NCBI GenBank assembly: GCA_022767345.1
Contig: JALEOD010000013.1
Location: forward strand, 1 to 47,297
DNA: 47,297 nucleotides
Origin: Emergencia sp.
Lineage (GTDB): Bacteria > Bacillota > Clostridia > Peptostreptococcales > Anaerovoracaceae
Reading direction: 5' to 3'
Numbering within the stretch: position 1 is the stretch's first letter; each line of letters begins with the position of its first letter. The notes beneath the pieces are model-generated. The model did no database searches and had not been told where the DNA came from. It worked only from the letters and a program-made list of their open reading frames with translations. This document shows positions 15,660-34,550 of the stretch, one piece after another. The position numbers and the translations under genes are program-made.

Positions 15660-17627
15660 ATGAAAAAAAGCATTTCTTTGACATTGGCTGCAATTGCGCT
15701 GATTATCTGGTTCGGCGCTTGCATTAATATGATGATTCGATACAATATGGACTGGCTTGATTATATCAAATACAGTTTTGACCTGACGACCTCGCAGAAG
15801 GAGTATTTCAGCAAGGCCCATATTACCTGCGGGGTAAAATACAACAGTCTGCCCCTGTCCTTTGTCAATGAGGCCAATCAAAACGATGGAATTTTCATCG
15901 ATTTTATCGATCAGTTGTCTATTGAGTTGGAAAACGATATGGATATCAAACTGAATCAGGAAAAGGATTTGGCACGGGACTTTGAGAACGGGGATATTCA
16001 GGCTGCCATTGTGGACAAGAGCCAGCTGCCTGCAGAGAATTACCTCTTTACTGAGCCCCTTTATATCATGCATGGAAAGATGCTGGTTAAGGAGAATTCG
16101 GATTTGGACAATATGAACCAGCTGAAAGATGTAAAGGTTGCGGTGGAGGAAGGCGAGGAAGCCATGGCGGCCCGAATCGAAGAACTGTATGGCAGCAAAG
16201 GGGTGTCCGTGGTCTACGCAAAGGATTTTCAGCAGTCTCTGGACATGCTGGAAAACAATATAGTGGCTGCAGTTGCAGGGGATGAGACAAAGCTTTCCTA
16301 TCTGATTAACCAGCATAGAAGCAATCGCTATTATAAATTTTTACAGTATTCTTTTTCCAGAACGGAAATCTGTATAGCGCTGGATAAATCCAACGAGGGA
16401 CTTTTGAACGCTTTTAACAAGGCGGTCCTTTCCATGAAAAAGAAGAATCTGATTACGAAGACCCAGAGCAAATGGTTTGGCGCCATGGAACCGGAAATCA
16501 CCGATATGTCGGAAGTGGATCTGATTTACAACATTGCTTTTTTCTTCATGATCTGCGGCGCGGCCTTTACAGTGTGGAATCTGTCGACGGCGAAGAAAGT
16601 TACGGAAAAGACCCGGGAGCTGTTTCACAGCAAGGAGCAGCTGCGGCTGATTATCGATACTTTGGACAAGGGACTTCTGATCGCTTCCGGAAACGGAAAG
16701 ATTTTGGAAGTTAACGATGAAATTTGCAGGATTGCCGGCTGCAGCAAAAAGGAGCTGCTGGGCGCGAACCTTTATGAGAATCAGTGGGTTATGCCCTTTC
16801 TTTCCGCAGATGACGAAAAAGTCTACAAGCTGAAAGAACACTATTACATGAAAAACACCATGGACTTGAGCGGAGAAGATAAAAAACTCTACATCGTGGA
16901 GGAATGGACCCAGCGGTATATCAATCAGCAGCGCAATATTCAGGAGGAAAAGATGATTGCTGTAGGACAGCTTTCCGCGGGGCTTGCTCATGAAATCAGA
17001 AATCCTTTAGGCCTGATTAAAAGCTATATGTTCCTCATACAGGATTTTTGCAAAGGGGAAGACGGCCGTCACGCAGTGAATGTGATTGACGACTCTATCA
17101 AACGAATTAACCGGCTTATCGATAGTCTCCTGAAATTTTCAAGGCTTTCCGGAGAGGAGAGTAAGGACGTGGATGTGGGAGAACTGATTAACAACATACT
17201 CATTTTGGAAAAGAAACAGATGGACAGCAAAAATATAGAAGTGGTATTTTCCATGACGGGCAGACGAACGAAACCGGTACTGCTCAATGAAGACTTGCTG
17301 AAAATCACCATCATCAACCTGTTGAACAACAGTATTGACGCCCTTGAGAATGCGCCGGGGCAGCGAAAAATTGAAATTGGTGTGACGGTTCTGGAAAAGG
17401 CGGTCAATATTGTCTTTCGCGATAACGGCTGCGGGATTGACAGCGGAAAGCTTCTGGAGATTTTTAATCCGTTTTATACCAGCAAAGAACAGGGAACCGG
17501 ACTGGGACTTTATCTGGTTCACTCTCAGCTGGAGCAGGCCGGCGGTCACATTCGGGCGGAAAGCGCTTTAGGCGAGGGAACGACTTTTTATGTGGAAATT
17601 CCCATGTCTGGCGGAACGCACATTTAG
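15660..17627 (+). CDS. Sensor histidine kinase with an amino-acid-binding extracellular domain
   Basis: Protein of 655 residues. Membrane segments at about 5-24 and 289-308 flank a periplasmic-binding-protein type 2 domain (SBP_bac_3, about 50-275), the fold that binds polar amino acids. A PAS domain follows (about 325-420), then a HisKA domain with phospho-acceptor H444 (LAHEIRNPLG) and a HATPase with N box NN at 556-557, G1 DNGCGID and G2 GTGLGL. The order is that of NtrB/AtoS-like kinases working with sigma-54 response regulators, and such a regulator follows 38 bases later. An amino-acid-like ligand outside the cell is the probable signal, fitting the transporter and catabolic genes downstream. 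Confidence 0.9.
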   Translation: MKKSISLTLAAIALIIWFGACINMMIRYNMDWLDYIKYSFDLTTSQKEYFSKAHITCGVKYNSLPLSFVNEANQNDGIFIDFIDQLSIELENDMDIKLNQEKDLARDFENGDIQAAIVDKSQLPAENYLFTEPLYIMHGKMLVKENSDLDNMNQLKDVKVAVEEGEEAMAARIEELYGSKGVSVVYAKDFQQSLDMLENNIVAAVAGDETKLSYLINQHRSNRYYKFLQYSFSRTEICIALDKSNEGLLNAFNKAVLSMKKKNLITKTQSKWFGAMEPEITDMSEVDLIYNIAFFFMICGAAFTVWNLSTAKKVTEKTRELFHSKEQLRLIIDTLDKGLLIASGNGKILEVNDEICRIAGCSKKELLGANLYENQWVMPFLSADDEKVYKLKEHYYMKNTMDLSGEDKKLYIVEEWTQRYINQQRNIQEEKMIAVGQLSAGLAHEIRNPLGLIKSYMFLIQDFCKGEDGRHAVNVIDDSIKRINRLIDSLLKFSRLSGEESKDVDVGELINNILILEKKQMDSKNIEVVFSMTGRRTKPVLLNEDLLKITIINLLNNSIDALENAPGQRKIEIGVTVLEKAVNIVFRDNGCGIDSGKLLEIFNPFYTSKEQGTGLGLYLVHSQLEQAGGHIRAESALGEGTTFYVEIPMSGGTHI

Positions 17628-17665
17628 AGCAGAGGAAAGAGCAGATTAAGGAAAGGCGGCAGAAT

Positions 17666-19045
17666 ATGAAAACAGGATATAATATTTTAATTGTAGATGA
17701 TGAGCCGGAATATCAGAAAGTCGTCTCTATGATATTGAGCAGGAAGGGTTATCAGACCAGCACGTGTTCCAACGGCAGGCAGGCGCTGGCCTATATACAG
17801 GAACATGAGGTCAATCTGGTAATTACGGATTTGCGTATGCCGGAACTTTCCGGAGAGGAGCTGATTCGTGCGCTGACTTCCGAAAACGAGGATATCGATA
17901 TCATCGTCATGACGGCTTACGGTTCCATCGAGAGCGCGGTGGATTCCATCAAGTACGGCGCTAAGGATTATTTTGTCAAGAGCAGCGATTTGGAGGAGTT
18001 GATTATGAAGGTGGAGAGGCTGGCGCAGCTGAAACGCCTTGCGGAAAAAAGCGATATTCTCCTTCGCAACCAGCATGAAGAAAATGTATTTCTGGAGTCG
18101 AAAAATCCGCAGTATCTGCGGCTTTTGGAGCTTTGCGACAAGACGGCGGATACCAACATCAACGTCCTTTTGCTGGGCGAGTCCGGCGTAGGCAAGGAAG
18201 TTTTTGCCAACTATATCCATAACAAAGGCGCGCGGGCCAGAGAACCTTTTGTTCCTATCAACTGTCAGAGTCTGCCGGAAAGCGTCATCGAGTCGGAACT
18301 GTTCGGTCATGAAAAGGGCAGCTTTACAGGCGCCGTGACAAAGCGAATCGGAAAATTTGAAGAGGCGAATTTCGGCACGCTGTTTCTCGATGAAATTGGC
18401 GATTTGCCCATTCGTATGCAGGGAAAGCTGCTGCGAGTTTTGGAAAATCGTAAAATTGAGCGAATCGGAAGCAATAAATCCATCGACTTGGATGTGCGGC
18501 TTATCTGCGCTACCAATAAATCTTTGGAAGAAGAAATTGCTGCCGGGAGATTTCGGGAAGATTTGCTCTATCGCATCAATACGCTGACTTTATCCATTCC
18601 GCCTATTAGACAGCGGAAAGAGGATTTAGAAGGGCTCATTGCATTTTTCCTCAGAAAGACTGAAGCGGAGCAGAAGAAAAAAATCACCCATGTCGACGGG
18701 CAGGTGATGACGATGCTGCTGGAATACGATTATCCCGGCAATGTGCGGGAACTGAAGAATATCATTGAACGAATGGTTGCCTTAAGCGACGGCGGAAAAA
18801 TTACCATCAACGATTTGCAGCAGCCTCTGTGCGGCGGACGCAGTTTTGCGGCAGAGTCAGAATTTTATGGTGAGGGCGCTACGCTGAAAGAGGCGCGGGC
18901 GGGCTTTGAAAAGCATTACATTGAAAGAGCTTTGAAGGCTGCAGGCGGCAACGTGACAAAGTGTGCAGAGGCTCTTGGGATTACGGCGCGGCAGCTTTGG
19001 AATAAACTGGGTGAATATGGGATTGACCCTAAGACTGTGAAATAA
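17666..19045 (+). CDS. NtrC-family sigma-54 response regulator
   Basis: Protein of 459 residues. The receiver domain (1-120) has phospho-acceptor D55 in ITDLRMPE. The AAA+ domain has Walker A GESGVGKE 171-178, the sigma-54 contact loop as GSFTGA (218-223) in place of GAFTGA, and Walker B FLDEIGDLP. A Fis-type HTH ends the protein (NVTKCAEALGITARQLWNKL). It is paired with the kinase just upstream. Its predicted targets are the two palindromes at 19039-19083 and the -24/-12 promoter at 19149, which control the NhaC gene. The Ala-to-Ser change in the loop is conservative and occurs in other active members. Confidence 0.92.
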   Translation: MKTGYNILIVDDEPEYQKVVSMILSRKGYQTSTCSNGRQALAYIQEHEVNLVITDLRMPELSGEELIRALTSENEDIDIIVMTAYGSIESAVDSIKYGAKDYFVKSSDLEELIMKVERLAQLKRLAEKSDILLRNQHEENVFLESKNPQYLRLLELCDKTADTNINVLLLGESGVGKEVFANYIHNKGARAREPFVPINCQSLPESVIESELFGHEKGSFTGAVTKRIGKFEEANFGTLFLDEIGDLPIRMQGKLLRVLENRKIERIGSNKSIDLDVRLICATNKSLEEEIAAGRFREDLLYRINTLTLSIPPIRQRKEDLEGLIAFFLRKTEAEQKKKITHVDGQVMTMLLEYDYPGNVRELKNIIERMVALSDGGKITINDLQQPLCGGRSFAAESEFYGEGATLKEARAGFEKHYIERALKAAGGNVTKCAEALGITARQLWNKLGEYGIDPKTVK

Positions 19046-19148: not shown

Positions 19149-19164
19149 TGGCATAGTTCTTGCT
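19149..19164 (+). promoter_or_regulatory. Sigma-54 (-24/-12) promoter of the first NhaC gene
   Basis: TGGCATAGTTCTTGCT matches TGGCACRNNNNTTGCW with one change (C to T). The GG and GC doublets have correct spacing (19150-19151 and 19162-19163). It lies 44 bases before the ATG. Confidence 0.82.
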
Positions 19165-19207: not shown

Positions 19208-20665
19208 ATGGGTAAGAAACGAACCCCGAGACTTCCTAAGGTTTGGGAAGCGCTCATTCCAATCGTCTTTATGATGGTCATTATTATTTTAAGTACTGTA
19301 AAATGGGGTCTGGATCCGCATATGCCGATTATCGCGTCCTGTATCGTAGCGTCTTTAGTAGCAGTGAAATGCGGATATACCTGGGAGGACATCGCCGCGG
19401 GCGCCTATGACAGCATTCGCAGAACGGTTGAAGCATTCCTGATTATCATGTGCGTAGGTATGCTGATTGGTTCCTGGGTTTGGTCCGGCACGATGCCGGC
19501 TATGGTTTACTATGGACTGGAAATTATCTCTCCGGGTGCATTTTTGGTAGTAGGCGCAATCTTAACTGCTATCGTAGGTCTTGCAACAGGCTCTTCCTGG
19601 ACTGCGTCCGGTACAGTAGGTGTTGCGTTGATGGGTATTGCAATGGGCCTTGGCATCAATCCTGCCCTGGCAGCTGGTATGGTTATCTCCGGCGCATACA
19701 CAGGCGACAAATTATCTCCGCTGTCTGACAGTACAAACGTTGCGGCAGCCGGTGCAGAAACACCGCTGTACGACCACGTTTCTGCTATGATGACAACCAC
19801 AATTCCATCATTTTTGATTTCTCTGGTGCTGTACGGCATTGTAGGCGCTATCGTTATTGACGAATCCGGTTACGATGCTTCCCTGGCGCTGGACATTCAG
19901 AATGCAATTGCGGATAATTTCTACCTGTCACCGTGGATTATGCTGCCTGTATTGGTTGTTGTATTCGGCGCAGTAAAGAGAATTCCTGCGATTCCGTCAC
20001 TGCTTCTTGCTGCGATTTGCGGCGGCATCGTGGCTATGATTGCGCAGGGCGCAAGTTTTCCTGAGGTCTTCGGCGGCATGCAGACCGGCTTCAGCATTGA
20101 ATCCGGCAACGAAGTAACTGACAGCCTGCTCAACAGAGGCGGTATTGACTCTATGATGTGGACGATTTCTTTGATTATGTTCGCTCTGTTCTTCGGCGGC
20201 GTCCTTGAAAAGTGCGGCTTCATCGAAGTGCTTTTGGGCGGTCTTGTAAGGAGAGTAAAGAGTGTCGGAGGCTTGGTACTTTGCACTATCGTGACCGGTA
20301 TCATCTGTGACGTAGTGCTGACTGACCAGTATTTGGCAATTTTAGTACCGGGCAGAATGTACATGAAGGCCTTCGATGAAAGAGGACTGAGCAGAAGTTT
20401 TCTGTCCAGAACTACAGAAGATGGTGCGACCCTCTGGTCTCCGATGATTCCGTGGAACGGCTGCGGCGCTTATCAGTCCGCGACTTTAGGCGTATCCAAC
20501 TGGGCGTTTATGCCGTACGCATTTATGAATCTGATCAATCCTGTTCTGGCAATTACAATTTCCTACCTGGGCATTGGCATCAAGTACAAGGAATATGAAG
20601 GAAAAACCAGAGCAGAAGTGAAAGAATTGAAAGCAAAGAGAAAGGCAGAAAGACGCAATGGATAA
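19208..20665 (+). CDS. NhaC-family Na+/H+ or metabolite antiporter (first copy)
   Basis: Polytopic membrane protein of 485 residues from ATG 19208, chosen because AAGGAGG lies just upstream and the longer frame begins inside the sigma-54 promoter. It has about eleven hydrophobic segments and the NhaC signature TGSSWTASGTVG...SGAYTGDKLSPLSDSTN. Members include Na+/H+ antiporters and the malate-Na+/lactate antiporter MleN, so in amino-acid catabolic clusters they may well exchange metabolites. Expression should depend on the upstream two-component system through the -24/-12 promoter. It overlaps the next gene by eight bases, so the two are co-translated. Confidence 0.88.
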   Translation: MGKKRTPRLPKVWEALIPIVFMMVIIILSTVKWGLDPHMPIIASCIVASLVAVKCGYTWEDIAAGAYDSIRRTVEAFLIIMCVGMLIGSWVWSGTMPAMVYYGLEIISPGAFLVVGAILTAIVGLATGSSWTASGTVGVALMGIAMGLGINPALAAGMVISGAYTGDKLSPLSDSTNVAAAGAETPLYDHVSAMMTTTIPSFLISLVLYGIVGAIVIDESGYDASLALDIQNAIADNFYLSPWIMLPVLVVVFGAVKRIPAIPSLLLAAICGGIVAMIAQGASFPEVFGGMQTGFSIESGNEVTDSLLNRGGIDSMMWTISLIMFALFFGGVLEKCGFIEVLLGGLVRRVKSVGGLVLCTIVTGIICDVVLTDQYLAILVPGRMYMKAFDERGLSRSFLSRTTEDGATLWSPMIPWNGCGAYQSATLGVSNWAFMPYAFMNLINPVLAITISYLGIGIKYKEYEGKTRAEVKELKAKRKAERRNG

Positions 20666-22767: not shown

Positions 22768-23994
22768 TTATTTCTGCCGAAAGTAATCCTCTATGACATC
22801 AGCAACCTGTTTCATTTCGAAGATGCCGTATCGCTGGTCGCACTGGAGCATCAGGTTGTGATCCGACATATACTTTGCGTCTTCGCCCGGCGTGTAGTAC
22901 TCCGTCGGCAGAATCCACTGAATTTCAGGGATAATATTGTGCTGCACCAGATGGCGATAAAGGTCTTCACGGTCGTCTGCTAAAATGATAAGGCCGAATG
23001 GCACGAAGTCGCCGTCAGGGCCGATATCTTTATTTAAGACGGTAATTTGTGGTATTTGCCTGAGTCTGTCATAGAGATATCGAAAGTTTTCAATGCGCCG
23101 GCAGATGAGTGTTTCTGCATCTGTATCAAAGAAAATCTGCCTGGAGGCCTCCGTCATTTCCCGCGGCGTCAAATCGACGTAGCGGCTGGCATTGGCTCTT
23201 TTTTCGTAAGTCAGATAAGCTTCCTTTTCCATTTCCGGATTCTCTGCGTATAAAGGCCTCATGACGGATATCAGCAGCTCCTTATAGACGCTTTCGTCGT
23301 AGGCCTCTGCTAAAGGATAAGCAAAATCACAGCCTTTTTCTTCAAAGACATCATTTCTGATTGCGCAAATGCCGCCGTCTGTCATCGGAAACCATTTTCT
23401 GGTGCTGCCGACGATGTAGTGGCCGAAGCCCATGGTGCGAAAATCTGCGCCGGCAGGCGTTCTGGAAAAGAGCGCCTGGGTGATGTCCTCCATAATCAAA
23501 AGATTATAGGATTTTGCCAGCTGGCAAAGGGCCTTTACCGTTTCTGCAGGGTGGGGCACTGTGAAGTAGTCGATGACATAAATCATGCCCACTGTGTCGT
23601 CCAGCCTGGATTCCAAGTCGGCAAGGTCGATTTCCAGATTCCGTGTGACTCTGTAAAAGTCATAGGAAACACCGGCCCATTCTATGGCGCTGATAACGGA
23701 AAGACACAGATAATCGGGCAGCAGCACTTTTTTTTCTGCCATTTTCTCTGCGCAGTGCTTCATCGCATAAACAGAGGCAGTGCGGCCGTTGTTTGTATAA
23801 ATCTTATGTCCATACCGCCCGGAACTCTGCACCTTTAGCATATCCTGCATGTCCTGCATGTCCTGCGAGGCTTGTGTCCCGGGCACGGTCTGTACAGGCT
23901 GTCCGTGCGTATCAAGGCGCAGCACAAAATCATTATGGACGGGGTCTTTTGCAAGAATCGCCCCGTCTACACTGTAAAATCCTCCGATTAGCAT
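22768..23994 (-). CDS. DegT/DnrJ/EryC1/StrS-type PLP-dependent protein
   Basis: Protein of 408 residues, last gene of the leftward operon, starting three bases after the upstream stop. Fold-type I PLP features are visible: NNGRTASVYA for phosphate binding, EDITQALF with the ring-binding Asp, and STRK200WFPMTDGG with the Schiff-base Lys. Length and order fit the DegT/StrS sugar-aminotransferase superfamily, although co-location with guanidino enzymes suggests an amino-acid-like substrate. The first 60 residues are atypical and include a QDMQDMQDM repeat encoded by a 9-bp tandem repeat. Reaction unknown: transamination, lyase or beta/gamma-elimination are all possible. Confidence 0.72.
   Translation of the reverse strand: MLIGGFYSVDGAILAKDPVHNDFVLRLDTHGQPVQTVPGTQASQDMQDMQDMLKVQSSGRYGHKIYTNNGRTASVYAMKHCAEKMAEKKVLLPDYLCLSVISAIEWAGVSYDFYRVTRNLEIDLADLESRLDDTVGMIYVIDYFTVPHPAETVKALCQLAKSYNLLIMEDITQALFSRTPAGADFRTMGFGHYIVGSTRKWFPMTDGGICAIRNDVFEEKGCDFAYPLAEAYDESVYKELLISVMRPLYAENPEMEKEAYLTYEKRANASRYVDLTPREMTEASRQIFFDTDAETLICRRIENFRYLYDRLRQIPQITVLNKDIGPDGDFVPFGLIILADDREDLYRHLVQHNIIPEIQWILPTEYYTPGEDAKYMSDHNLMLQCDQRYGIFEMKQVADVIEDYFRQK
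23843..23866 (-). repeat. 9-bp tandem repeat inside the DegT-type gene
   Basis: TCCTGCATG is repeated at 23843-23851 and 23852-23860, followed by TCCTGC. Being a multiple of three it keeps the frame and lengthens a QDM run. It is a slippage-prone site that can vary protein length between strains. Confidence 0.7.
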
Positions 23995-23997
23995 GGC

Positions 23998-25957: not shown

Positions 25958-25962
25958 GGGTT

Positions 25963-25978
25963 TAAACGATATCGTTTA
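25963..25978. repeat. 16-bp perfect palindrome at the 3' end of the second NhaC gene
   Basis: TAAACGATATCGTTTA equals its own reverse complement and includes the NhaC stop codon. It may be a protein-binding site or part of the 3' structure. Confidence 0.5.
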
Positions 25979-27481
25979 TGCTTCAACTTTCTTTCCGTAA
26001 AGGTTGGAAAGGACAAGTACTGTAACAACCAGCAATGCGATTCCGACAGGAAGTGCAATGATACTGCCTGTAAGACCTGCAACTGCGTAGGTTACGATGG
26101 ATACACCGCCGACCATCAGTGCGTAAGGAAGCTGAGTCTTTACGTGAGCCAGAAGGTCGCAGCGAGCACCGTTAGCGGATAAGATTGTAGTATCGGAAAT
26201 CGGTGAGCAGTGGTCGCCGAAGAGACCGCCTGACAGCACAGAAGCAATTGCTACATGCATTGGTGCGTTCAGAGCCATAGCAGCAGGAACTGCGATTGTC
26301 ATCATGATGGAGAAGGTTCCCCAGGAAGAACCGGTAGAGAAAGAGATAACTGCACTGGCAATAAAGATGATAACCGGCAGTACCCATGCAGGTACGTTAT
26401 CCTGCAGCAGATTTACAACGAATTCCGGTCCGCCCATTGTCTTAGTTACGCTGCTCAGTACCCATGCCAGAAGCAGGGTAATGAATACGCTTGCGATACT
26501 TTCAAGACCGGATACGTAGTCGTGGCAAATGCTTTTGAAGGATTTGATTTTCAGCACAACAACCAAAATGATATTGGCAACAGAACCGAATACGAAACCT
26601 GCAATCAGTGCACCACGGAGCGCGTCGCCGTCAACGGATTTGAACGGGAAGCCCTGCGGGCAAAGCATGAAGCACAGTGTGCCAATCATGATGATAAGCG
26701 GAATTAACATGACCATTGGACGGCTGTTTTCCAGTTTTGCGTCGGTGTCAATTTTTACAGCTTCAGCAACCTGACCGCCAGGGGAAACTTGACCGGAAAG
26801 GGCACGAATTTCAGCTTTGTGCATCGGTCCGAATTCTTTTCTGGTAAAAGCAATCAGCGGAACCATCAGCAGGGAAAGCAGTGCGTAGAACTGGAACGGC
26901 CAGGCCTTCAGCAGCATATCCCATTCGGTGGAAGCATAGCCTGCTGCCTGGAATTCAGTGCCCATCAGTCCCATGATGTAAGCGCCCCAGCCAAGGAACG
27001 GAACAAGAATGGAAAGTGGAGAAGCGGTGGTATCTAAAATCCACGCCAGCTTTTCTCTGGAAACATTCATCTTGTCAGTCAAAGGCTGTACAATCGGGCC
27101 TGCGATAATCGGGCTTCCGATATCAGAGAAGAATACCATGATACCTGCAACCCAGCCTGCCATCTGTGCTTTTGCACGGCTGTTTACGAATTTTGTAACG
27201 CTGGACGCAAAAGCGTGAGCGCCGCCGGATACCTCCAGCAGTTTTACAAAGCCACCGATAAAAATCAGCAGTACCAGTACCTCTGCGCAATAGGAGTCTG
27301 TCATGTTTGGAACTAAGTGGTCCACAACGTATGACATCATTGCGTCAAATGGATTTCCTTTGAAGATGACTAAAAGTCCAGCAAAGGCACCGGCGAAAAG
27401 TGCGATAGAAATGTTTTTGAGCCACATTGCGATGACGATGGTCAGCGCGATGGGAAATAGTGATAGAATACCATAATCCAT
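25976..27481 (-). CDS. NhaC-family Na+/H+ or metabolite antiporter (second copy)
   Basis: Polytopic membrane protein of 501 residues with roughly twelve hydrophobic segments and NhaC hallmarks SVFITLLLAW, STGSSWGTFSIMM and GGLFGDHCSPISDTTILS. It is only distantly similar to the first NhaC at 19.2 kb, so the two probably carry different compounds. It leads the leftward operon containing the two guanidine-modifying enzymes and is preceded by AAAGGAG. It most likely imports the substrate or exchanges it with a product, with Na+ or H+ as counter-ion; the specificity is inference. Expression is predicted from the sigma-54 promoter at 27526-27541. Confidence 0.88.
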   Translation of the reverse strand: MDYGILSLFPIALTIVIAMWLKNISIALFAGAFAGLLVIFKGNPFDAMMSYVVDHLVPNMTDSYCAEVLVLLIFIGGFVKLLEVSGGAHAFASSVTKFVNSRAKAQMAGWVAGIMVFFSDIGSPIIAGPIVQPLTDKMNVSREKLAWILDTTASPLSILVPFLGWGAYIMGLMGTEFQAAGYASTEWDMLLKAWPFQFYALLSLLMVPLIAFTRKEFGPMHKAEIRALSGQVSPGGQVAEAVKIDTDAKLENSRPMVMLIPLIIMIGTLCFMLCPQGFPFKSVDGDALRGALIAGFVFGSVANIILVVVLKIKSFKSICHDYVSGLESIASVFITLLLAWVLSSVTKTMGGPEFVVNLLQDNVPAWVLPVIIFIASAVISFSTGSSWGTFSIMMTIAVPAAMALNAPMHVAIASVLSGGLFGDHCSPISDTTILSANGARCDLLAHVKTQLPYALMVGGVSIVTYAVAGLTGSIIALPVGIALLVVTVLVLSNLYGKKVEA

Positions 27482-27525
27482 AGTTAGTCTCCTTTCTGCT
27501 ATGTTAATCTACGCCACAGATATAG

Positions 27526-27541
27526 AGCAAAAATTATGCCA
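27526..27541 (-). promoter_or_regulatory. Sigma-54 (-24/-12) promoter of the leftward operon
   Basis: On the minus strand the site reads TGGCATAATTTTTGCT, the same one-base deviation (C to T) from consensus as the promoter at 19149. It lies about 45 bases before the NhaC start codon. Confidence 0.82.
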
Positions 27542-27585
27542 TGTGGATTTTTTATGAAAATTGCAGAAAAAGGCTGATAGGAAAG

Positions 27586-27638
27586 TGATAATCTTTATCA
27601 AAAATGATAACTTTTATTAATTATGATAATCTTTGAGA
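27586..27638. promoter_or_regulatory. Three TGATAA repeats, likely enhancer sites
   Basis: TGATAATCTTTATCA (27586), TGATAACTTTTATTA (27605) and TGATAATCTTTGAGA (27624) start exactly 19 bp apart. The first contains GATAA/TTATC inverted arms. They lie about 70-125 bp upstream of the predicted start of the leftward sigma-54 promoter. The second and third overlap the 3' end of the activator gene. They are probable binding sites for the PAS-type activator. Confidence 0.62.
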
Positions 27639-29434
27639 ATGCGATATAGGGTCGCAATTCCGATTCCAAGACTGGCTGCAGCATTTTTTTTGCCTTTGGT
27701 ATCCCAGCCGTATTTGTCCAGAGCTTTTAAGACTTCGTCGATTTCTGATTTTCGTCTGGAATCCCGAAGTTTTGAGGCGGCAGGCGGCGCAGCCTGTGAA
27801 AATGTCTCAGTTTCTGCTCTGAGAAGCTCTGCGGAATAAGAGGCAGCCTCCTGTTTTGGAGTTTTGATTCTTGCCGGAATACTAAAGCTTGTCAGGATTT
27901 CCTGACTTTCTACGTTAAGGGCGCATTCGATGGTGTTTTCAAGCTCTCTGATATTGCCGGGCCATGGGTAATCGGTGAGGATTTTTGCGGCCTGAGGCGT
28001 CATATCGTGAACGTGCTTGCGCAGATGTTTTGAGTATTTCTCCATAAAGTGGCGGGAAATCACTAAAATATCTTCGCTGCGCTCCCGCAGCGGCGGAATA
28101 AATATTGGAATTACATTGAGTCTGTAGTAAAGATCGCTTCGGAATTCTCCGTCTTCAATCATGGTTTCAAGGTTGCGGTTAGTGGCGGCGATTACCCTTA
28201 TATCGATTGGAATATCTTTGCTTCCGCCTACCTTTTCAATGGTGCGCTCCTGAAGCATGCGCAGGAATTTGACCTGCAGGAAAATAGGAATATCTCCGAC
28301 TTCATCAAGGAATAGAGTGCCGCCGTTTGCCAGCTGGCATTTACCGATTTTGCCGCCTTTTTTCGCGCCGGTAAATGCGCCGTCTTCGTAGCCGAAAAGC
28401 TCACTTTCCAGCAAGGTTTCGGGGATAGCGCCGCAGTTGATTGCGACAAAAGGACCGTCTTTTCTGCTGCTGTGATTGTGAATGGCTCTGGCAAAGAGCT
28501 CCTTGCCGGTGCCGCTTTCGCCGCGAATCAGAACTGTCGAGTCGCTGCCGGCGATTTTATGGGAAAAGTCGATGACCTCGCAAATCGCCTTGGATTCGCC
28601 GACGATATCACTGAATTCCACTTTATAATCTGATTTGTGAAGAATGCTGGATGCGATGTTGCTGGCTTCTGAAAAGCTTTTCATATTGAGAATTGTGCCG
28701 TGCTTGGTGCCGCTTGTTTCAATCCGCTTGGCGGTCAGAAGTACGTTGATATCTCCCTGCTCGCTGCGGATTGTCACTTCGTTATCGATGTAGGAAGATG
28801 TCTTCTGAATATCGGCGATGACCTGATTCGGCAGAATTGCGCTGACATGCGCTCCAATGAGTTTATCTGTAATGCCGAAATTTCTGGTGGCGGACTCGTT
28901 GATTCGGTAGATGATGGAGTTGCTGTCTACAGCGATAACGCCGTCGTGAACGGAGTTTAAAATGGCAAGGGTTTCGTTAAGATTCACCCTGAGCCGGTCG
29001 GCGTATTCTACCGTCTCAATTCTGCTGGAAATCAGCTCGGAGAGCTTTTCTGTAAAGCTGACGAAGACATCCTGGTCGAAAAGACCGCTGTTTTTCTGTT
29101 CGTCAGTAAAGGCGATAAAGCCGATGGCACCGCGGATTTCGCCGTTGACGTGAAGCGGCGCATAGACTGCAGCTTTTTCTTTACAGTTCTCCTTATTTTC
29201 GCAGTTGGTGCAGGCCGGTTCTTCGCCGGGACTGCTGATGATAATCTTTTGATTGTTTTCTATAACGCTCTTGAAAACGTTGGAATTTTCCACTTTACTC
29301 CCGATTTCAGCCTTGTAAAGGCCGGTGCCTGTGGTTCTGATAAAGTCTTTATCGATGGTGGTAATGACTACGTTAAAAAGCTCAGAAACGGTCTCGCAGG
29401 TTTCCTGAATGAAGCTGTAATTTTTATTTAGCAT
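27617..29434 (-). CDS. PAS-containing sigma-54-dependent transcriptional activator
   Basis: Protein of 605 residues from ATG 29434, chosen because GGAAGGGG precedes it. An N-terminal sensory region of about 150 residues carries a CTNCENKENC cysteine cluster, then a PAS domain (about 165-260). An AAA+ domain follows with GESGTGKE 305-312, canonical GAFTGA 352-357 and FLDEVGDIP, and a Fis-type HTH ends the protein (GKKNAAASLGIGIATLYRIL). There is no receiver domain, so it senses a ligand or redox state directly. It lies between the two sigma-54 operons, divergent from the aminotransferase operon, and probably controls both. The Cys cluster could bind metal or respond to redox, but this is untested. 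Confidence 0.9.
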   Translation of the reverse strand: MLNKNYSFIQETCETVSELFNVVITTIDKDFIRTTGTGLYKAEIGSKVENSNVFKSVIENNQKIIISSPGEEPACTNCENKENCKEKAAVYAPLHVNGEIRGAIGFIAFTDEQKNSGLFDQDVFVSFTEKLSELISSRIETVEYADRLRVNLNETLAILNSVHDGVIAVDSNSIIYRINESATRNFGITDKLIGAHVSAILPNQVIADIQKTSSYIDNEVTIRSEQGDINVLLTAKRIETSGTKHGTILNMKSFSEASNIASSILHKSDYKVEFSDIVGESKAICEVIDFSHKIAGSDSTVLIRGESGTGKELFARAIHNHSSRKDGPFVAINCGAIPETLLESELFGYEDGAFTGAKKGGKIGKCQLANGGTLFLDEVGDIPIFLQVKFLRMLQERTIEKVGGSKDIPIDIRVIAATNRNLETMIEDGEFRSDLYYRLNVIPIFIPPLRERSEDILVISRHFMEKYSKHLRKHVHDMTPQAAKILTDYPWPGNIRELENTIECALNVESQEILTSFSIPARIKTPKQEAASYSAELLRAETETFSQAAPPAASKLRDSRRKSEIDEVLKALDKYGWDTKGKKNAAASLGIGIATLYRILKDYHN

Positions 29435-29517
29435 AGAGTATCCCCTTCCTCTTGTTAGCGTGTACATAGTTTAAGAAGATTATATCTGCCCATAGAAATT
29501 TGTCAACTTTTTTTCTT

Positions 29518-29533
29518 TGGCACAAAACTTGCG
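29518..29533 (+). promoter_or_regulatory. Perfect sigma-54 (-24/-12) promoter of the aminotransferase operon
   Basis: TGGCACAAAACTTGCG carries a full TGGCAC and TTGC with five bases between. It is 73 bases before the ATG of the aminotransferase. Confidence 0.88.
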
Positions 29534-29545
29534 ATTGAGTTATGG

Positions 29546-29569
29546 TATCACGAATCGTATCACGAATCG
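29546..29569 (+). repeat. 12-bp tandem repeat at the predicted transcription start
   Basis: TATCACGAATCG occurs twice without a gap (29546-29557 and 29558-29569), followed by a partial third unit. It begins about where transcription should start, 13 bases after the -12 element. It may be an operator or an RNA element in the leader. Confidence 0.55.
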
Positions 29570-29605
29570 CATGACGAGAAATTCACAGAACAAGGGAGGT
29601 CAATC

Positions 29606-30796
29606 ATGACAAATAAAATGAAACAGAGTGTGAAAATGGATACTATTCCATTTTCCGGAATCAGAAAGGTTTTTGAAGCAGCAGGTAAGCTGGAGAAGGA
29701 AGGAAAGGAAATTATCAATTTAGGAATCGGCCGTCCGAACTTTGATACGCCGGAGTTCATCAGAGACGCAGCAAAGAAAGCGCTGGACGACGGATATACC
29801 TACTATACTTCCAATTACGGAACAGAAGGATTGCGTCAGGCTGCAGCCGATAAGTTTAAAAGAGACAACGGTCTTGATATGACAATGGACGATATCATTG
29901 TAACGGTAGGCGCAAATCAGGCAGTTTCCATCGCAATGACAGGACTTCTTGATCCGGGCGATGAGGTGCTTGTTCCAAATCCATCATGGCTGCACTATTT
30001 CTACTGTGCAGAGCTGGCAGGCGCAAAGACTGTGTCCTATCCGCTTCTGGAAGAAAATGATTTCAACGTACAGATCGAGGATATTGAAAAGCTGGTTTCT
30101 CCAAAGACCAAGATGATTATCGTCAACACGCCAAACAACCCGACAGGCTCCGTACTCAGCAGAGAAAGTCTGGAGAAGATTGCCAAAATCGCAAAAGACA
30201 ATGACTTAATTGTGCTTTCCGATGAAATTTATGAAAAACTGTTATATGATGAAAGTACCCATACCAGCATCGCATCTCTTCCGGGTATGGCAGAGAGAAC
30301 CATTATCATCAACGGCGTCTCAAAGGCTTACGCCATGACGGGCTGGAGAATCGGTTTTGCGGCTTCCAAGAATCCTGCCTTCATCAGCGCAATGATTCGT
30401 GTGCTGCAGTACACCGTAACCTGCGCAACTTCCGTATCCCAGTATGCAGCTGAAGCAGCCCTTTCCGGTCCACAGGAATGTATCGAAGAAATGCGCGTAC
30501 AGTTTGACAGAAGAAGAAAGCTGGTTTATGATTCCATTAATAAGATAGAAGGCCTTAGCTGCAACTGCCCGAAAGGCGCATTCTACTGCTTTATGAATAT
30601 CAAAGGTCTCGGTATTACAGATGAGGAAGCTTCCGATTACTACCTGAACGAAGCAGGGGTTGCGATGATTCCGGGATCTGCTTTTGGTGAATACGGAACC
30701 GGCTATCTGCGTATTGCTTTCTCTAATTCCTATGAAAATATTGAAAAGGCTATGGGAAAAATCAAGGAAGCAACTGAAAGGCTGTTAAACAAATAA
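29606..30796 (+). CDS. Class I/II PLP-dependent aminotransferase
   Basis: Protein of 396 residues, the usual aspartate-aminotransferase (AT-I) length. It has the NTPNNPTGSV segment, SDEIYEKLLY with the ring-binding Asp, the Schiff-base Lys240 in SKAYAMTGWRIGF, and the substrate-carboxylate Arg in YLRIAFSNS. It should convert an alpha-amino acid to its 2-oxo acid with 2-oxoglutarate or pyruvate as acceptor. ATG 29606 follows GGGAGG. It is the first gene of a five-gene operon under a perfect sigma-54 promoter. Substrate specificity cannot be read from sequence. Confidence 0.9.
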   Translation: MTNKMKQSVKMDTIPFSGIRKVFEAAGKLEKEGKEIINLGIGRPNFDTPEFIRDAAKKALDDGYTYYTSNYGTEGLRQAAADKFKRDNGLDMTMDDIIVTVGANQAVSIAMTGLLDPGDEVLVPNPSWLHYFYCAELAGAKTVSYPLLEENDFNVQIEDIEKLVSPKTKMIIVNTPNNPTGSVLSRESLEKIAKIAKDNDLIVLSDEIYEKLLYDESTHTSIASLPGMAERTIIINGVSKAYAMTGWRIGFAASKNPAFISAMIRVLQYTVTCATSVSQYAAEAALSGPQECIEEMRVQFDRRRKLVYDSINKIEGLSCNCPKGAFYCFMNIKGLGITDEEASDYYLNEAGVAMIPGSAFGEYGTGYLRIAFSNSYENIEKAMGKIKEATERLLNK

Positions 30797-30815
30797 TTGA
30801 TTTGGAGGAATTTCC

Positions 30816-31793
30816 ATGTTGAACATATTGAACTATGAAATCAAAAAAGGTGATAAATTCATGGTAGACGTTCCGGTCTCTGATGGAGAAGGGCGCAAAA
30901 CCCATTTTCCTTTTTACGCAATCTGCGGAGAAAAGGACGGACCGGTTCTCTGCATTACTTCCGGCGTGCACGGTACAGAATATCCGGGAATCGGCGCAAA
31001 CCTTGCTCTTTATCATGAAATCAAGCCGGAGGAACTTGCAGGCACGATTATCGGTGTGCCGCAGTGCAACTTCGCGTCTTTTCAGGCGAAAGTACCTTTT
31101 GTAAATCCTCTGGACGGAAAGAATCTCAACGACACCTTCCCAGGTGCTGCTGAGGGAACTATTACAGAACGCTTATGCTATACCCTGGTTCATGAAGTGG
31201 CGGCAAAGGCCGATTATCACATCGATATGCACAGCGGCGACAGCATTGAATGGCTGTATCCTTACGCATTTTATCACATCAGTGAAAAAGACAAAAAGGT
31301 AACTGAAACAGCGCAGGCTTTAGCGAAGGTTTACGGACTGGATTATGTTTCCTATACAGAAACAGCCGGAGCAGGTGCAACAGATAAGGGCAACTTCTAT
31401 GCAGCGGTCAGCGAACTGGGGATCCCAAGTATTCAGCCGGAAATCGGCGGCATTGGCCTCATCGAAGAGGAAACGAAAATGCTTCACTATGAAGGCGCAA
31501 AGAATGTGATGAAACATCTGGGTATGCTCTGCGGAGAGGCAGAGGAAAATCCGCGTCAGAAAGAGCTTTTCAGATTTTACCGTCTGAAAGCGCCGAAGAG
31601 CGGTATTTACCATTGCCGTGTGACGCCGGGCGAAAAGGTGAAAAAAGGCCAGCTTTTAGCGGTACTGACAGATTATCACGGAGATGAAGTATACCGCGAA
31701 TTTTATGCGGAAGAAGACGCAGTGATTCTGTGGGTAATGTCCACTTTTGCAGCATGCGAGGGTGACAATCTCATGGCAATCGGTGTGATTTAA
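30816..31793 (+). CDS. Succinylglutamate desuccinylase / aspartoacylase-family deacylase
   Basis: Protein of 325 residues in the M14-like AstE/AspA family. Zinc ligands are H52-x-x-E55 (VHGTEYPG) and H139 (HIDMHSGD), with catalytic Glu209 in QPEIGG. A C-terminal beta domain follows (PKSGIYHCRVTPGEKVKKGQ). It resembles the DoeB/AstE subgroup that removes an acyl group from an N-acylated amino acid. ATG 30816 follows TTGGAGG, 19 bases after the aminotransferase stop. Its presence suggests that a pathway intermediate is N-acylated, or that the enzyme cleaves another amide. Lack of a signal peptide puts it in the cytosol. Confidence 0.85.
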   Translation: MLNILNYEIKKGDKFMVDVPVSDGEGRKTHFPFYAICGEKDGPVLCITSGVHGTEYPGIGANLALYHEIKPEELAGTIIGVPQCNFASFQAKVPFVNPLDGKNLNDTFPGAAEGTITERLCYTLVHEVAAKADYHIDMHSGDSIEWLYPYAFYHISEKDKKVTETAQALAKVYGLDYVSYTETAGAGATDKGNFYAAVSELGIPSIQPEIGGIGLIEEETKMLHYEGAKNVMKHLGMLCGEAEENPRQKELFRFYRLKAPKSGIYHCRVTPGEKVKKGQLLAVLTDYHGDEVYREFYAEEDAVILWVMSTFAACEGDNLMAIGVI

Positions 31794-31807
31794 AGGAGGA
31801 ACGAAGT

Positions 31808-32839
31808 TTGAACATAGGAATCATTGGTTATGGCGGCGTAGGGAAAGCGCTGGTCAGACTTTTGAACATGCAGAAAGAAATTCTGGAAGGAGAGGGGCTT
31901 TCTATTAAGGTCAGCTATGTGGTTGATTACTACGGCGGTATCCACGCTGCGGAAGGGATTGATCTGGCGGCGTTGGAAGCTTTTACGGAAAAAGAGAAAG
32001 ATATTACTAAATTTTCCGGCGGCAGTGCGGAGATTACTGTAGCAGATATGGTTTCAGATTCTGCTGTGGATTTGGCGGTTATCATGACGCCGACCAATAA
32101 AGAAACCGGACAGCCGGGACTTTCTTATGCGGAAAGTCTGTTAGAAGTAGGAAAGCATGTGGTAATTTCTGACAAAGGGCCGATTATGCTTGCATATCAC
32201 AAATTGGCAGCTCTGGCGAAATCCTGCGGCGTTCAGCTGGGCATCGGCTGTACGACAGGCGGTGCTCTTCCGTCGGTCAACGCTGGTATGATTGACATGG
32301 CGGGCAGCAGTATTTCTTCTATTGAAGGGGTACTCAACGGAACGACCAATTTCATTTTGAAATACATGGAAGACCATCACTGCGAATATGCGCAGGCGCT
32401 GAAAATTGCACAGGAGTGCGGCATTGCCGAGACCAATCCGACTTTAGATGTGGAAGGCTGGGACACTGCAGGAAAGCTGCTGATTTTAACCAACGTGCTG
32501 ATGGGTGAGGAAAAAACGCTGGCGGATATTAAGGTAAGCGGTATTACCTCACTGACTGCGGCAGACATCGAAAGTGCGGCGGCAGCGGGCCTGAAGTACA
32601 AGCTGGTGGGAAAAACCGTAAATAAGGACGGACAGCTTCAAATGTCTGTAGGTCTTGAGCGACTGCCGGCAGAGCACCTTCTTTACAGCGTAGAGGGAAA
32701 GAACAAGGCGGTGCGCTATGTTTCTGATACCCTGGGAGAACTTGCTGTTATCGGCGGTGCGTCCGGCGTAATTCCGGCAGCGGCATCTATTCTGCGTGAT
32801 ATCGTTAATATTCACAGAGAGTATCAGTTTATCAGATAG
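31808..32839 (+). CDS. Homoserine-dehydrogenase-like oxidoreductase
   Basis: Protein of 343 residues starting at TTG 31808 behind AAAGGAGG. A Rossmann nucleotide-binding motif (GIIGYGGVGKAL) opens it, followed by the homoserine-dehydrogenase catalytic domain: K123 (ISDKGP), E208, D219 and K223 (GWDTAGKLLIL). The active-site residues are therefore intact, and there is no ACT regulatory domain. Placement inside a sigma-54 catabolic operon, not with threonine/methionine genes, indicates a degradative dehydrogenase for homoserine or a related hydroxy amino acid. Confidence 0.85.
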   Translation: MNIGIIGYGGVGKALVRLLNMQKEILEGEGLSIKVSYVVDYYGGIHAAEGIDLAALEAFTEKEKDITKFSGGSAEITVADMVSDSAVDLAVIMTPTNKETGQPGLSYAESLLEVGKHVVISDKGPIMLAYHKLAALAKSCGVQLGIGCTTGGALPSVNAGMIDMAGSSISSIEGVLNGTTNFILKYMEDHHCEYAQALKIAQECGIAETNPTLDVEGWDTAGKLLILTNVLMGEEKTLADIKVSGITSLTAADIESAAAAGLKYKLVGKTVNKDGQLQMSVGLERLPAEHLLYSVEGKNKAVRYVSDTLGELAVIGGASGVIPAAASILRDIVNIHREYQFIR

Positions 32840-32848
32840 GAGAAAGAC

Positions 32849-33739
32849 ATGCGTTTAGCAACAATTAAAATAAAAGGCGGAGAATTTGCGGGAATTGTGA
32901 CTGAACATGGCATTGTTCCGGTTGAGACAGTCAATGCTGTCTGCGGCACATCCTGGGAAACTCTGATGTATGATTTGATTTGCACCGGGCAGCTGGAAAC
33001 GCTGACCGTATGGTATAACGACGGCGGAAAAGAAAAACTTGCAGAAATGGACTGCGTTCCTTTTGAAAAGGTCGAATACGCGCCGCTTTACAGAAATCCC
33101 CAGAGAATTTTCGGAATCGGATTAAACTATGTAGACCATGCAGGAGATTTGGGCGAAGGCGCACCGAAAGGCTTTCCGGGAAGCTTCTATAAACCGGCTT
33201 CCTGCATCGTAGGCCCCGGAGATGACATCTGCATTCCGGCCCTTCCTGAAGCGCAGAAAACCACCGGAGAAGCTGAGCTTGGCATTATCATGGGAAAGAA
33301 GTGTAAGTTTATTGAAGAAGAGCAGTGGCAGGATTATATCGCCGGCTATACGACCATTCTGGATATGACAGAAGAATCCATCCTGCGGCAGAATCCGAGA
33401 TTCCTGACTATCGTAAAAGGCTTTGATACTTTCTTCAGCTTCGGACCGCAGCTGATTACGCCGGACGAAGTAGAAGATGTATCGGCGCTGGAAGTGCAGA
33501 CTGTGCATAACGGACAGATTCATGCGAAAAACACAGTGTCCAACATGACCCACAGCCCATCAAGACTGGTATCCCTGATTTCTCACATGCAGGGCTGGCT
33601 GCCGGGAGATATTCTCTCCACCGGAACGCCAAGAGCTGTGCATATTCAGGACGGAGATACAGTAGAGTGCCGCATTTTCGGGCCAAATGGCTTTGAAATG
33701 GAGCCCCTTGTAAATCCGGTTGTAGATTTGAAATTGTAG
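32849..33739 (+). CDS. Fumarylacetoacetate hydrolase (FAH)-family protein
   Basis: Protein of 296 residues. The FAH fold signature is present: GIGLNYVDHAGD, FYKPASCIVGPGD, metal-binding E141-x-E143 (GEAELG) and D172 (LDMTEES), and DILSTGTPRAV near the end. Family members cleave C-C bonds of acylpyruvates, decarboxylate, hydrate or tautomerise 2-oxo acids. In this operon it would act on a 2-oxo acid produced by the aminotransferase or dehydrogenase. ATG 32849 follows TAGGAG, nine bases after the previous stop. Confidence 0.88.
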   Translation: MRLATIKIKGGEFAGIVTEHGIVPVETVNAVCGTSWETLMYDLICTGQLETLTVWYNDGGKEKLAEMDCVPFEKVEYAPLYRNPQRIFGIGLNYVDHAGDLGEGAPKGFPGSFYKPASCIVGPGDDICIPALPEAQKTTGEAELGIIMGKKCKFIEEEQWQDYIAGYTTILDMTEESILRQNPRFLTIVKGFDTFFSFGPQLITPDEVEDVSALEVQTVHNGQIHAKNTVSNMTHSPSRLVSLISHMQGWLPGDILSTGTPRAVHIQDGDTVECRIFGPNGFEMEPLVNPVVDLKL

Positions 33740-33755
33740 AAAGAGGTGAAATAAT

Positions 33756-34550
33756 ATGGATTTAGGTTTAAAAGATAAATGTGCTCTGGTACTTGCGTCA
33801 AGTTCCGGTCTTGGTAAAGCAGTTGCAAAAGAACTGGCAGCAGAAGGCGCAAAGGTAATGCTGTTCAGTCCGTTTTTAGAGCAGCTGCAGGAGGCAAAGG
33901 AAGAGTTAATCCGCGAAACGGGAAATGAAAATGTAGAATTTTTCTGCGGCGATATGACAAAGCCGGAAGATATCAAAGAACTGGTTTCCGCTACCTGTGA
34001 AAAATTCGGGCCGATTTATGCGCTGTTCAACAACGCAGGAGGACCACCGGCAGGACCGCTTAATTCCTTTGATGATGAAGCGTGGTACAAGGCTTTTGAT
34101 CTGACGCTTTTGTCCTATCAGAGAGTTGTCCGTGAGGTAGCGCCGATTATGATGGAAAACGGCGGTGGAAGAATTGTCAACTCCACATCTTCTTCAATCA
34201 AAGCGGTTCTCGACAATCTGGGACTTTCCAATACCATGCGTGCAGGGGTGGTAGGCTGGTCAAAGACTGTGTCACAGGAGCTTGGTAAGTACAATATTTT
34301 AGTCAATGTCATCGGACCCGGCCGCATCGGTACGGCCAGAATCGATCATCTGGACAAAATGCGTGCCGAAAAACAGGGGATTTCTGTGGAGCAGCTGCAG
34401 GAAAATACCTGGAAAACCATTCCTCTCGGCAGATACGGAAAGCCGGAAGAATACGGCAAGCTGGCAGCATTCCTGTTGTCGTCTACTGCAAATACCTATA
34501 TCACCGGACAGACCATTCTGGTTGACGGCGGGCTGGTGAAGGCACTGTGA
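33756..34550 (+). CDS. Atypical SDR-family oxidoreductase (FabG-like)
   Basis: Protein of 264 residues with an SDR Rossmann fold: SSSGLGKAVAKEL for dinucleotide binding, NNAGGPPAG, and PGRIGTARI after the active site. The usual Ser...YxxxK catalytic set is not intact. Where Tyr-x-x-x-Lys is expected the sequence reads LSNTMR (S158, N159, R162), with S143-S147 upstream. This SNxxR pattern marks a distinct SDR subgroup with non-standard chemistry or acid/base. Last gene of the operon, ATG 33756 behind AAGAGGTG. Probably reduces or oxidises an operon intermediate. Confidence 0.82.
   Translation: MDLGLKDKCALVLASSSGLGKAVAKELAAEGAKVMLFSPFLEQLQEAKEELIRETGNENVEFFCGDMTKPEDIKELVSATCEKFGPIYALFNNAGGPPAGPLNSFDDEAWYKAFDLTLLSYQRVVREVAPIMMENGGGRIVNSTSSSIKAVLDNLGLSNTMRAGVVGWSKTVSQELGKYNILVNVIGPGRIGTARIDHLDKMRAEKQGISVEQLQENTWKTIPLGRYGKPEEYGKLAAFLLSSTANTYITGQTILVDGGLVKAL

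Follow-up and report, generated by a model that had tools for sequence, protein, structure and literature searches.

A conserved divergent operon pair flanking a sigma-54 activator in Emergencia: a possible catabolic regulon for a guanidino amino acid

A stretch of 47,297 nucleotides from Emergencia sp. (contig JALEOD010000013.1, hereafter the window, which is contig C24 in our numbering of the 2.6 Mb genome) contains at positions 22768–34550 a conserved divergent operon pair flanking a sigma-54 activator, s54R. The leftward operon consists of PLP2, ADI1, ADI2 and NhaC2 with intergenic gaps of 3, 18 and 97 bases, while the rightward one comprises AT, AstE, HSD, FAH and SDR with gaps of 9–19 bases (Table 1). 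The cluster is real, conserved and unmatched by the metabolic routes tested. With a probability of about 0.48 we suggest that it is a regulon for the catabolism of an amino acid bearing a guanidino group, the breakdown of which would pass through a gamma-oxo or gamma-hydroxy amino acid. A preliminary description made from the letters of the window had already proposed a sigma-54-controlled cluster for a guanidino or ureido amino acid, and its interpretation is partly supported. All protein families that it named, i.e. a sensor kinase, two sigma-54 activators, two NhaC transporters, two ADI/DDAH-superfamily proteins, two pyridoxal phosphate (PLP) enzymes, AstE, HSD, FAH and SDR, were found at their places when the 20 open reading frames (ORFs) of the window were scanned against Pfam and NCBIfam. 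What goes beyond that description is an interchangeable ending predicted to yield pyruvate, which points to a gamma-hydroxy or gamma-oxo amino acid as the intermediate.

Linkage of the two operons in related genomes

In a survey of 247 sampled genomes of the family a homologue of ADI1 with at least 74% identity was registered in four: the genome of the window, Emergencia sp. 1XD21-10, Bacilliculturomica massiliensis and a genome designated here as G409. They represent three genera, and in all of them the ADI1-PLP2 pair, the activator, AT and AstE share one contig, so that the linkage of leftward and rightward operons, the lack of which would have spoken against the preliminary interpretation, is conserved. 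A scan of genome contigs with AstE gave three loci, namely those of Emergencia sp. 1XD21-10 and B. massiliensis and a contig of an uncultured Eubacterium metagenome-assembled genome (MAG), which is incomplete and carries NhaC2-s54R-AT-AstE-HSD.

The cluster of Emergencia sp. 1XD21-10 is syntenic to that of the window (AT and ADI1 97% identical, ADI2, NhaC2 and SDR 95%, FAH 91%, HSD and s54R 89%, AstE 87%, PLP2 73%). B. massiliensis has a reduced core composed of PLP2 (47%), ADI1 (75%), s54R (59%), AT (78%), AstE (56%) and HSD (67%). In G409 a single contig holds AstE (53%), AT (78%), s54R (56%), an ADI1-like gene (50%), ADI1 (79%) and PLP2 (52%), while HSD (62%) resides on a different one. PLP2 homologues of 47–53% directly follow ADI1 in both B. 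massiliensis and G409. Within the core, conservation is highest for AT and ADI1, which retain beyond 1XD21-10 78% and 74–79% identity, respectively. The set of ten genes listed in the preliminary description varies between genomes: FAH, SDR, ADI2 and NhaC2 have no match in the cluster stretches of B. massiliensis and G409.

A block composed of a sensor kinase (HK), a response regulator (RR) and NhaC1 adjoins the core in Emergencia sp. 1XD21-10. Nothing in the stretch read from B. massiliensis, which extends 4.6 kb beyond PLP2, matches it; the contigs of G409 and the MAG stop short of the place where it could be seen. The block was therefore observed beside the core within the genus only and is an unproven candidate member of the cluster.

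Outside these genomes related proteins occur in other surroundings. Among 297 genomes of the order, 22 others have AstE homologues at E 1e-20 or better with only 26–37% identity, and in the 29 short stretches read there the sole cluster-like neighbour was one activator-like gene. When a close homologue of ADI1 was sought among 398 genomes of the phylum, six others had matches of 45–51% identity, in different settings; distant homologues of PLP2 (24–29%) are present in 7 other genomes of 391, mostly near genes that by eye are of surface-polysaccharide type. Tblastn of ADI1 and of the aldolase described below against plasmids gave matches below 60% only.

The G409 contig also holds an Opp-like transporter (named by eye) and, inside the cluster, a protein of 1170 amino acids (L101:12889–16401) that carries at its C-terminus an M14-like match falling slightly short of the cut-off (E 2.6e-4) and contains a long Pfam-free region. 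A large protein of the same kind was noticed by eye near the B. massiliensis cluster (L063:15983–19801).

Promoters and regulation

Three −24/−12 sites were predicted in the preliminary description, and all three were located, beginning 59, 60 and 88 nt ahead of the starts of NhaC1, NhaC2 and AT, respectively. By count they are not above chance, since three or more matches to the pattern appeared in 35 of 100 shuffles of the window (mean 2.13). Their credibility comes instead from position and conservation. In each of five loci (the window, Emergencia sp. 1XD21-10, the Eubacterium MAG, B. massiliensis and G409) a site with 10 or 11 matches out of 11 stands ahead of AT and another such site ahead of the gene that opens the opposite arm, be it NhaC2, ADI1 or an ADI1-like gene, and for every divergent-arm region at most 2 of 500 base shuffles produced a site as good as the real one. 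Altogether 15 regions were tested, 260 nt each except for one internal gene start with 70 nt: twelve scored 10–11/11, one scored 9/11 and two, the internal gene starts tested alongside, did not exceed 7/11. The score of 9/11 belongs to the weaker site of the detached aldolase-HSD operon in G409, which was equalled in 19 of 500 shuffles.

A sigma-70 consensus ahead of s54R adjoins the −24/−12 site of AT. Single matches of this type mean little, as 34 were found in the window against 22.2 in shuffles. Since a sigma-70 consensus stands at s54R and sigma-54 sites stand at both arms, one can assume that s54R is probably expressed constitutively, whereas expression of its targets would be conditional. 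The sensory part of s54R contains SpoVT_C-like and PAS-like regions, both under Pfam cut-offs. A guanidine riboswitch was considered as another means of control, but no Rfam family matched the window at the gathering threshold.

Two alternative endings of the proposed pathway

In Emergencia the HSD gene is followed by FAH and SDR. In B. massiliensis a gene of the DHDPS family (293 codons, L063 10999–11880) is inserted between AstE and HSD, and a gene with 73% identity to it directly precedes HSD in G409; its best relative in the two Emergencia genomes has only 33%. Reciprocally, FAH of the window (91% identical in 1XD21-10) has no match in G409 and only one partial match of 32% (53 bits) in B. 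massiliensis. Thus, the FAH and SDR pair is replaced there by what is predicted to be an aldolase similar to 4-hydroxy-2-oxoglutarate aldolase (HOGA). The best PDB match of the B. massiliensis protein is human HOGA1 (E 2.7e-72, the next other protein having 4.8e-51). Since it also passes the NCBIfam cut-off of dapA (220 versus 206.15), we name it by the order of its PDB matches and by its residues. Passages of PMC3188589 state that Asn78 and Ser198 set HOGA apart from DHDPS, that Asn of the GSNGE loop meets the distal carboxylate, and that the S198T variant retains kcat with a 7-fold higher KM. The aldolase keeps the Schiff-base Lys, the GSNGE loop, Tyr168 and Asn173, the latter occupying the position of the semialdehyde-binding Arg138 of DHDPS, and has Thr in place of Ser198, so that all signature residues of HOGA but one are present.

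Both endings would in principle fit the cleavage of a 4-hydroxy-2-oxo acid to pyruvate, and for this reason a gamma-hydroxy or gamma-oxo amino acid is implied upstream. Breakdown of L-2-keto-3-deoxyrhamnonate also has alternative endings, being completed either by an aldolase or by an SDR-type 4-dehydrogenase and a FAH-type hydrolase. The logic is the same, as a 4-hydroxy-2-oxo acid is either split by aldol cleavage or first oxidised and then hydrolysed, but the cluster described here is fed by a transaminase and would thus start from an amino acid rather than a sugar acid. Hydroxyproline breakdown is another known system with a HOGA step, to which the B. massiliensis aldolase is linked by its signature residues and by human HOGA1 as the closest protein, but no hydroxyproline enzyme was recognised among the 20 ORFs.

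Depending on the setting, relatives of AT stand with one ending or with the other. The best-ranked plasmid match of AT lies in Priestia aryabhattai, where a FadR/GntR regulator, FAH (54% identical to that of the window), SDR (48%), a symporter of the SDF family and AT (48%) follow one another. The genome G578 combines a GntR/FCD regulator, a sigma-54 activator (39%), AT (50%), the aldolase (69%) and an SDF symporter, while in three genomes of the family (G416, G384 and G435) AT, FAH and SDR lie beside a gene that by eye is of LysR type. Pairwise identity of AT across these settings is only 43–50%, and for this reason the enzymes need not share one substrate.

Predicted properties of the enzymes

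Residues Asp96, His195, Asp197 and Cys291 of ADI1 are invariant in 17 of 17 aligned proteins and also align to ADI, and its profile matches both arginine deiminases and DDAH. We take Cys and His to be catalytic in this superfamily and the Asp pair to hold the guanidinium group. With these residues kept ADI1 can be assigned to the ADI/DDAH superfamily; its score with the arcA model is below the cut-off (106.4 versus 489.1). The guanidino or ureido substrate of the preliminary description is plausible yet unproven, the only evidence for it being the two ADI-superfamily proteins, both of which retain Cys, His and Asp typical of the superfamily. The genome of the window has 11 ADI-superfamily matches, including six close ones and two that may be pieces of a single frame of 442 codons. 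On its contigs C56, C46 and C35 (L056, L057 and L058) further ADI-like genes lie near Opp-like, NhaC-like, M28 peptidase (PF04389) or sigma-54-activator-like genes. In another genome, G837, genes for argininosuccinate lyase and an AT-like protein come directly after two ADI-like genes, and a FAH-family gene is nearby (L122:8814–12356).

PLP2 shows weak PDB matches to sugar aminotransferases. The score of AT with the GntC model of NCBIfam, the name of which gives gamma-hydroxy-L-arginine as the substrate, is under the cut-off (361.8 versus 415), and general aminotransferase models score alike, so that these scores say nothing for or against AT as a GntC-type cyclase; with the model of Cys/Met-family PLP enzymes it is 25.2 bits, again under the cut-off.

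An orthologue of HSD (62–100%) is present in all four cluster genomes, each of which has other HSD-family genes at 28–35%. HSD keeps Glu, Asp, Asp and Lys of what is presumably the homoserine site of homoserine dehydrogenase, and it is under the cut-offs of those NCBIfam HSD models that it matches. A tree of 12 sequences was built from five cluster-type copies, three rhizobial HSDs and one other HSD gene from each of four genomes. In this tree the proteins of the window, 1XD21-10, B. massiliensis, G409 and one more genome, G571, form a clade (100/99, with a long-branch warning). Its members, as well as the N-terminal piece of the copy from G789, have the loop GCT(T/S)GGALP, where other HSDs have a Glu-containing one. 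These features fit a gamma-hydroxy amino acid other than homoserine or accepted besides it.

Proposed route

Based on these predictions the following sequence of events may be assumed. The activator s54R, probably made from a sigma-70 promoter, would switch on two divergent sigma-54 operons, and NhaC2 would import the substrate. ADI1 (and ADI2) would hydrolyse the guanidino carbon, leaving an amino or an acyl/carbamoyl group for PLP2 and AstE to strip in roles sketched here in outline. HSD would interconvert carbonyl and hydroxyl at C4 of the amino acid, and AT would yield a 4-hydroxy-2-oxo acid. SDR would then oxidise C4 to give a 2,4-dioxo acid, from which FAH could release pyruvate and a carboxylate, while in Bacilliculturomica and G409 the HOGA-like aldolase acting in place of both would produce pyruvate and an aldehyde. 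Gene content, linkage, promoter-like sites, the swap of endings and retained catalytic residues are what the analysis shows, whereas the reactions and their order are proposed.

Our leading guess for the substrate is gamma-hydroxyarginine, although it is rather unlikely to be exactly right. In that case guanidinoacetate or the corresponding aldehyde would arise from the ending and could next serve ADI2 and AstE as a substrate. According to a passage of PMC10367076, Fgm3, a PLP enzyme of a fungal pathway, performs retro-aldol cleavage of the linear substrate of GntC. Since the NCBIfam model name gives this substrate as gamma-hydroxy-L-arginine, the chemistry has a precedent.

Several observations weigh against the proposed regulon. 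In the EGGD/EGAD motif the Glu of arginine deiminases, which is also present in ADI2, is replaced by Asp in ADI1. Within the cluster the complementary endings oppose only two genomes to two, and in one of them, G409, the aldolase-HSD pair is away from the core. SDR has SNTMR instead of the usual YxxxK (SNTFR in the Priestia homologue), so that its dehydrogenase role is uncertain and oxidation is the weakest of the assigned steps. The best PDB match of FAH is the isomerase/decarboxylase HpaG (1e-33) and not a diketo-acid hydrolase; diketo-deoxyrhamnonate hydrolase is ranked fourth (1.6e-27), and maleylpyruvate hydrolase and acylpyruvase likewise rank below HpaG. In 5 of 10 genomes of the family homologues of FAH have no match to AT or SDR in their stretch, one of them lying near a contig end. 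Among 391 genomes of the class sample 14 have a match to the aldolase, and in the 12 neighbourhoods read, some of them on short contigs, an HSD-like gene was adjacent in two, AT in one and neither in nine. The two cases with HSD are G571 and G789; there the HSD-like gene comes after the aldolase and in G789 is interrupted by masked bases. Finally, the SDF symporters of dicarboxylate type found in both outside settings, those of Priestia and G578, suggest an acidic substrate such as 4-hydroxyglutamate, and for this reason guanidino chemistry and the pyruvate ending may not form one linear path.

Other explanations and known pathways

The last objection has its own explanation, in which two supplies are governed by one regulator. 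The right arm would degrade an acidic gamma-hydroxy amino acid, for instance converting 4-hydroxyglutamate to pyruvate and glyoxylate or oxalate, and the ADI arm would separately salvage nitrogen from arginine-like compounds or peptides. We consider this rather unlikely. AT indeed stands by SDF symporters with FAH and SDR in Priestia and with the aldolase in G578, no ADI gene being seen there, the aldolase keeps the GSNGE Asn that contacts the distal carboxylate in HOGA, and in G789 a gene with an Asp_DH_C domain is located upstream of the aldolase and HSD. However, the transporter of the window is of NhaC type, the ADI1-PLP2 and AT-AstE pairs stay together in four cluster genomes of three genera, and the core genes with the highest conservation are AT and ADI1. 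4-Hydroxyglutamate explains the SDF symporters, but not the ADI arm.

The canavanine gamma-lyase pathway of Pseudomonas canavaninivorans and rhizobia also combines a guanidino amino acid with PLP and homoserine-dehydrogenase-family enzymes in one locus. A passage of PMC10018355 places the B3/4 (CtdA) gene directly ahead of the canavanine operon in P. canavaninivorans. In Mesorhizobium huakuii we found a locus in which a B3/4 gene is placed ahead of ABC transporter genes, a PLP enzyme of the Cys/Met family, HSD, an aldehyde dehydrogenase, a DHDPS-family gene and aspartase, and because of B3/4 this locus was taken as probably belonging to the canavanine type. Its PLP enzyme, like that of Rhizobium acidisoli, belongs to PF01053, while the R. 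acidisoli ORF tested at the B3/4 position is not B3/4. Judging by the M. huakuii locus, the lyase of the pathway is presumably of the same Cys/Met family. The 20 ORFs of the window contain ADI, AstE, FAH and SDR instead, and neither a B3/4 gene (sought in the window rather than in the rest of the genome) nor aldehyde dehydrogenase, aspartase or an above-cut-off PLP enzyme of the Cys/Met family beside HSD; AT aligns to the rhizobial PLP enzymes in short pieces only (E 0.004). Canavanine might still be used in a new way, with ADI1 producing O-ureidohomoserine, a PLP enzyme freeing homoserine and HSD with AT consuming it. The retained homoserine-site residues and 36–37% identity of HSD to its counterparts in the rhizobial loci, one of which has the B3/4 gene, agree with this idea. 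Nevertheless it appears improbable, as the cluster HSDs make up their own clade with an altered loop, and the aldolase acting on the keto acid of homoserine would release formaldehyde.

The arginine succinyltransferase (AST) pathway resembles the cluster in having a guanidino-modifying enzyme, a PLP enzyme and a deacylase of the AstE family. The AstA–AstE set is nevertheless not reproduced: among the 20 ORFs there are AstE-family, ADI-superfamily and PLP proteins, but neither AstA nor AstD, and HSD, FAH and SDR are added. Thus neither this route nor that of canavanine fits by gene content, as had been stated in the preliminary description. Ordinary fermentation of arginine or arginine peptides with redundant hydrolases also has little probability. 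The abundance of ADI-superfamily genes in this genome, which on contigs C46 and C35 have NhaC-like and sigma-54-activator genes as neighbours, speaks for it, as do related ADIs close to genes that by eye are Opp-like or resemble amino-acid ABC transporters. Such fermentation, however, could do without HSD-like, aldolase, SDR and FAH steps, and neither ornithine carbamoyltransferase nor carbamate kinase of the arginine deiminase pathway was found among the 20 ORFs. Even less can be expected from a cyclic amidine such as ectoine, the ring of which would be opened by ADI1, with AstE removing the acetyl group, PLP2 giving aspartate semialdehyde and HSD with AT leading toward pyruvate. N-acetyl-diaminobutyrate deacetylases are the nearest enzymes to AstE among NCBIfam models and are present among its five PDB matches. 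Yet the only NCBIfam model matched, DoeB, gives 104.6 bits versus the cut-off of 402.7, DoeA of ectoine degradation is absent among the 20 ORFs, and ADI1 keeps the Asp pair that presumably holds guanidinium in ADI.

Features of the locus and its neighbours

From left to right the window carries genes for YfcE phosphodiesterase, HK, RR, NhaC1, a bacterial PH-domain protein and a DUF4143 ATPase, which are followed by the leftward operon, s54R and the rightward operon. For NhaC1 and ADI2 the probable starts (19208 and 25878) differ from those in the ORF list.

Table 1. Genes and promoter-like sites of the cluster and of the linked block (window coordinates)
Feature	Position	Strand	Basis
HK, sensor kinase with SBP_bac_3 domain (linked block, candidate member)	15660..17627	+	SBP_bac_3 E 2.7e-13
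RR, NtrC/AtoC-type response regulator (linked block, candidate member)	17666..19045	+	Pfam/NCBIfam
−24/−12 promoter-like site of NhaC1 (linked block, candidate member)	19149..19164	+	pattern match
NhaC1, NhaC antiporter (linked block, candidate member)	19208..20665	+	TIGR00931 453.8 bits, cut-off 370
PLP2, divergent DegT-like PLP enzyme, Lys in STRKW motif	22768..23994	-	Pfam DegT 28.2 bits
ADI1, short ADI/DDAH-superfamily hydrolase (predicted)	23998..24927	-	Pfam ADI E 2.8e-24
ADI2, second ADI/DDAH-superfamily hydrolase (predicted)	24946..25878	-	Pfam ADI E 1.2e-24
NhaC2, NhaC-superfamily transporter	25976..27481	-	PF03553 E 1e-50; under NCBIfam cut-offs
−24/−12 (sigma-54) promoter-like site, leftward operon	27526..27541	-	pattern match and conservation
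s54R, PrdR-like sigma-54 activator	27617..29467	-	PrdR model 404.4 bits, cut-off 795
Sigma-70 consensus site (12/12) ahead of s54R	29479..29506	-	consensus scan
−24/−12 (sigma-54) promoter-like site, rightward operon	29518..29533	+	pattern match and conservation
AT, class I/II aminotransferase, Lys in SKAYAMTGW	29606..30796	+	Pfam E 3.6e-78
AstE, AstE/AspA-family zinc deacylase (HGTE, IDMHSG)	30816..31793	+	AstE_AspA_cat PF24827 E 2.6e-23
HSD, homoserine-dehydrogenase-like oxidoreductase, separate clade, loop GCTTGGALP	31808..32839	+	PF00742 E 3.1e-49
FAH, FAH-family hydrolase (FAA_hydrolase)	32849..33739	+	Pfam E 4.8e-43
SDR, short-chain dehydrogenase family, SNTMR at usual YxxxK position	33756..34550	+	Pfam; sequence reading

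The DUF4143/AAA_14 ATPase gene lies between the two blocks (21320–22612), and the equivalent stretch of Emergencia sp. 1XD21-10 contains no match to it. A gene for a sigma factor of the extracytoplasmic function type and an adjoining anti-sigma-like zf-HC2 gene (34867–36054) are located just downstream of the cluster on the other strand. One protein encoded at 13066–13977 fuses an AraC-type DNA-binding region (HTH_18, E 1.7e-17) with HD_4 (E 8.8e-18), the latter also matching a RelA/SpoT model under its cut-off; the fusion looks unusual.

Biological significance

This combination of genes was not described in the open-licence literature searched, where for broad queries the top-ranked results were considered. 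We put forward, as a tentative proposal, that guanidino amino acids from the diet, such as gamma-hydroxyarginine, would be converted by a not yet described anaerobic pathway to a 4-hydroxy-2-oxo acid and then to pyruvate by two interchangeable endings, with a new HSD-like clade acting on substituted gamma-hydroxy amino acids. Since Emergencia sp. 1XD21-10 and Bacilliculturomica massiliensis, the genomes of which have named records, carry the cluster, the question of its substrate can be tested. If true, this proposal would provide functions for an aminotransferase, an HSD-like clade and a FAH-SDR pair that are now named by family only, and would give an example of aldol cleavage and oxidation plus hydrolysis swapped on one intermediate. 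It would also add a route for guanidino amino acids to the amino acid fermentation of the gut.

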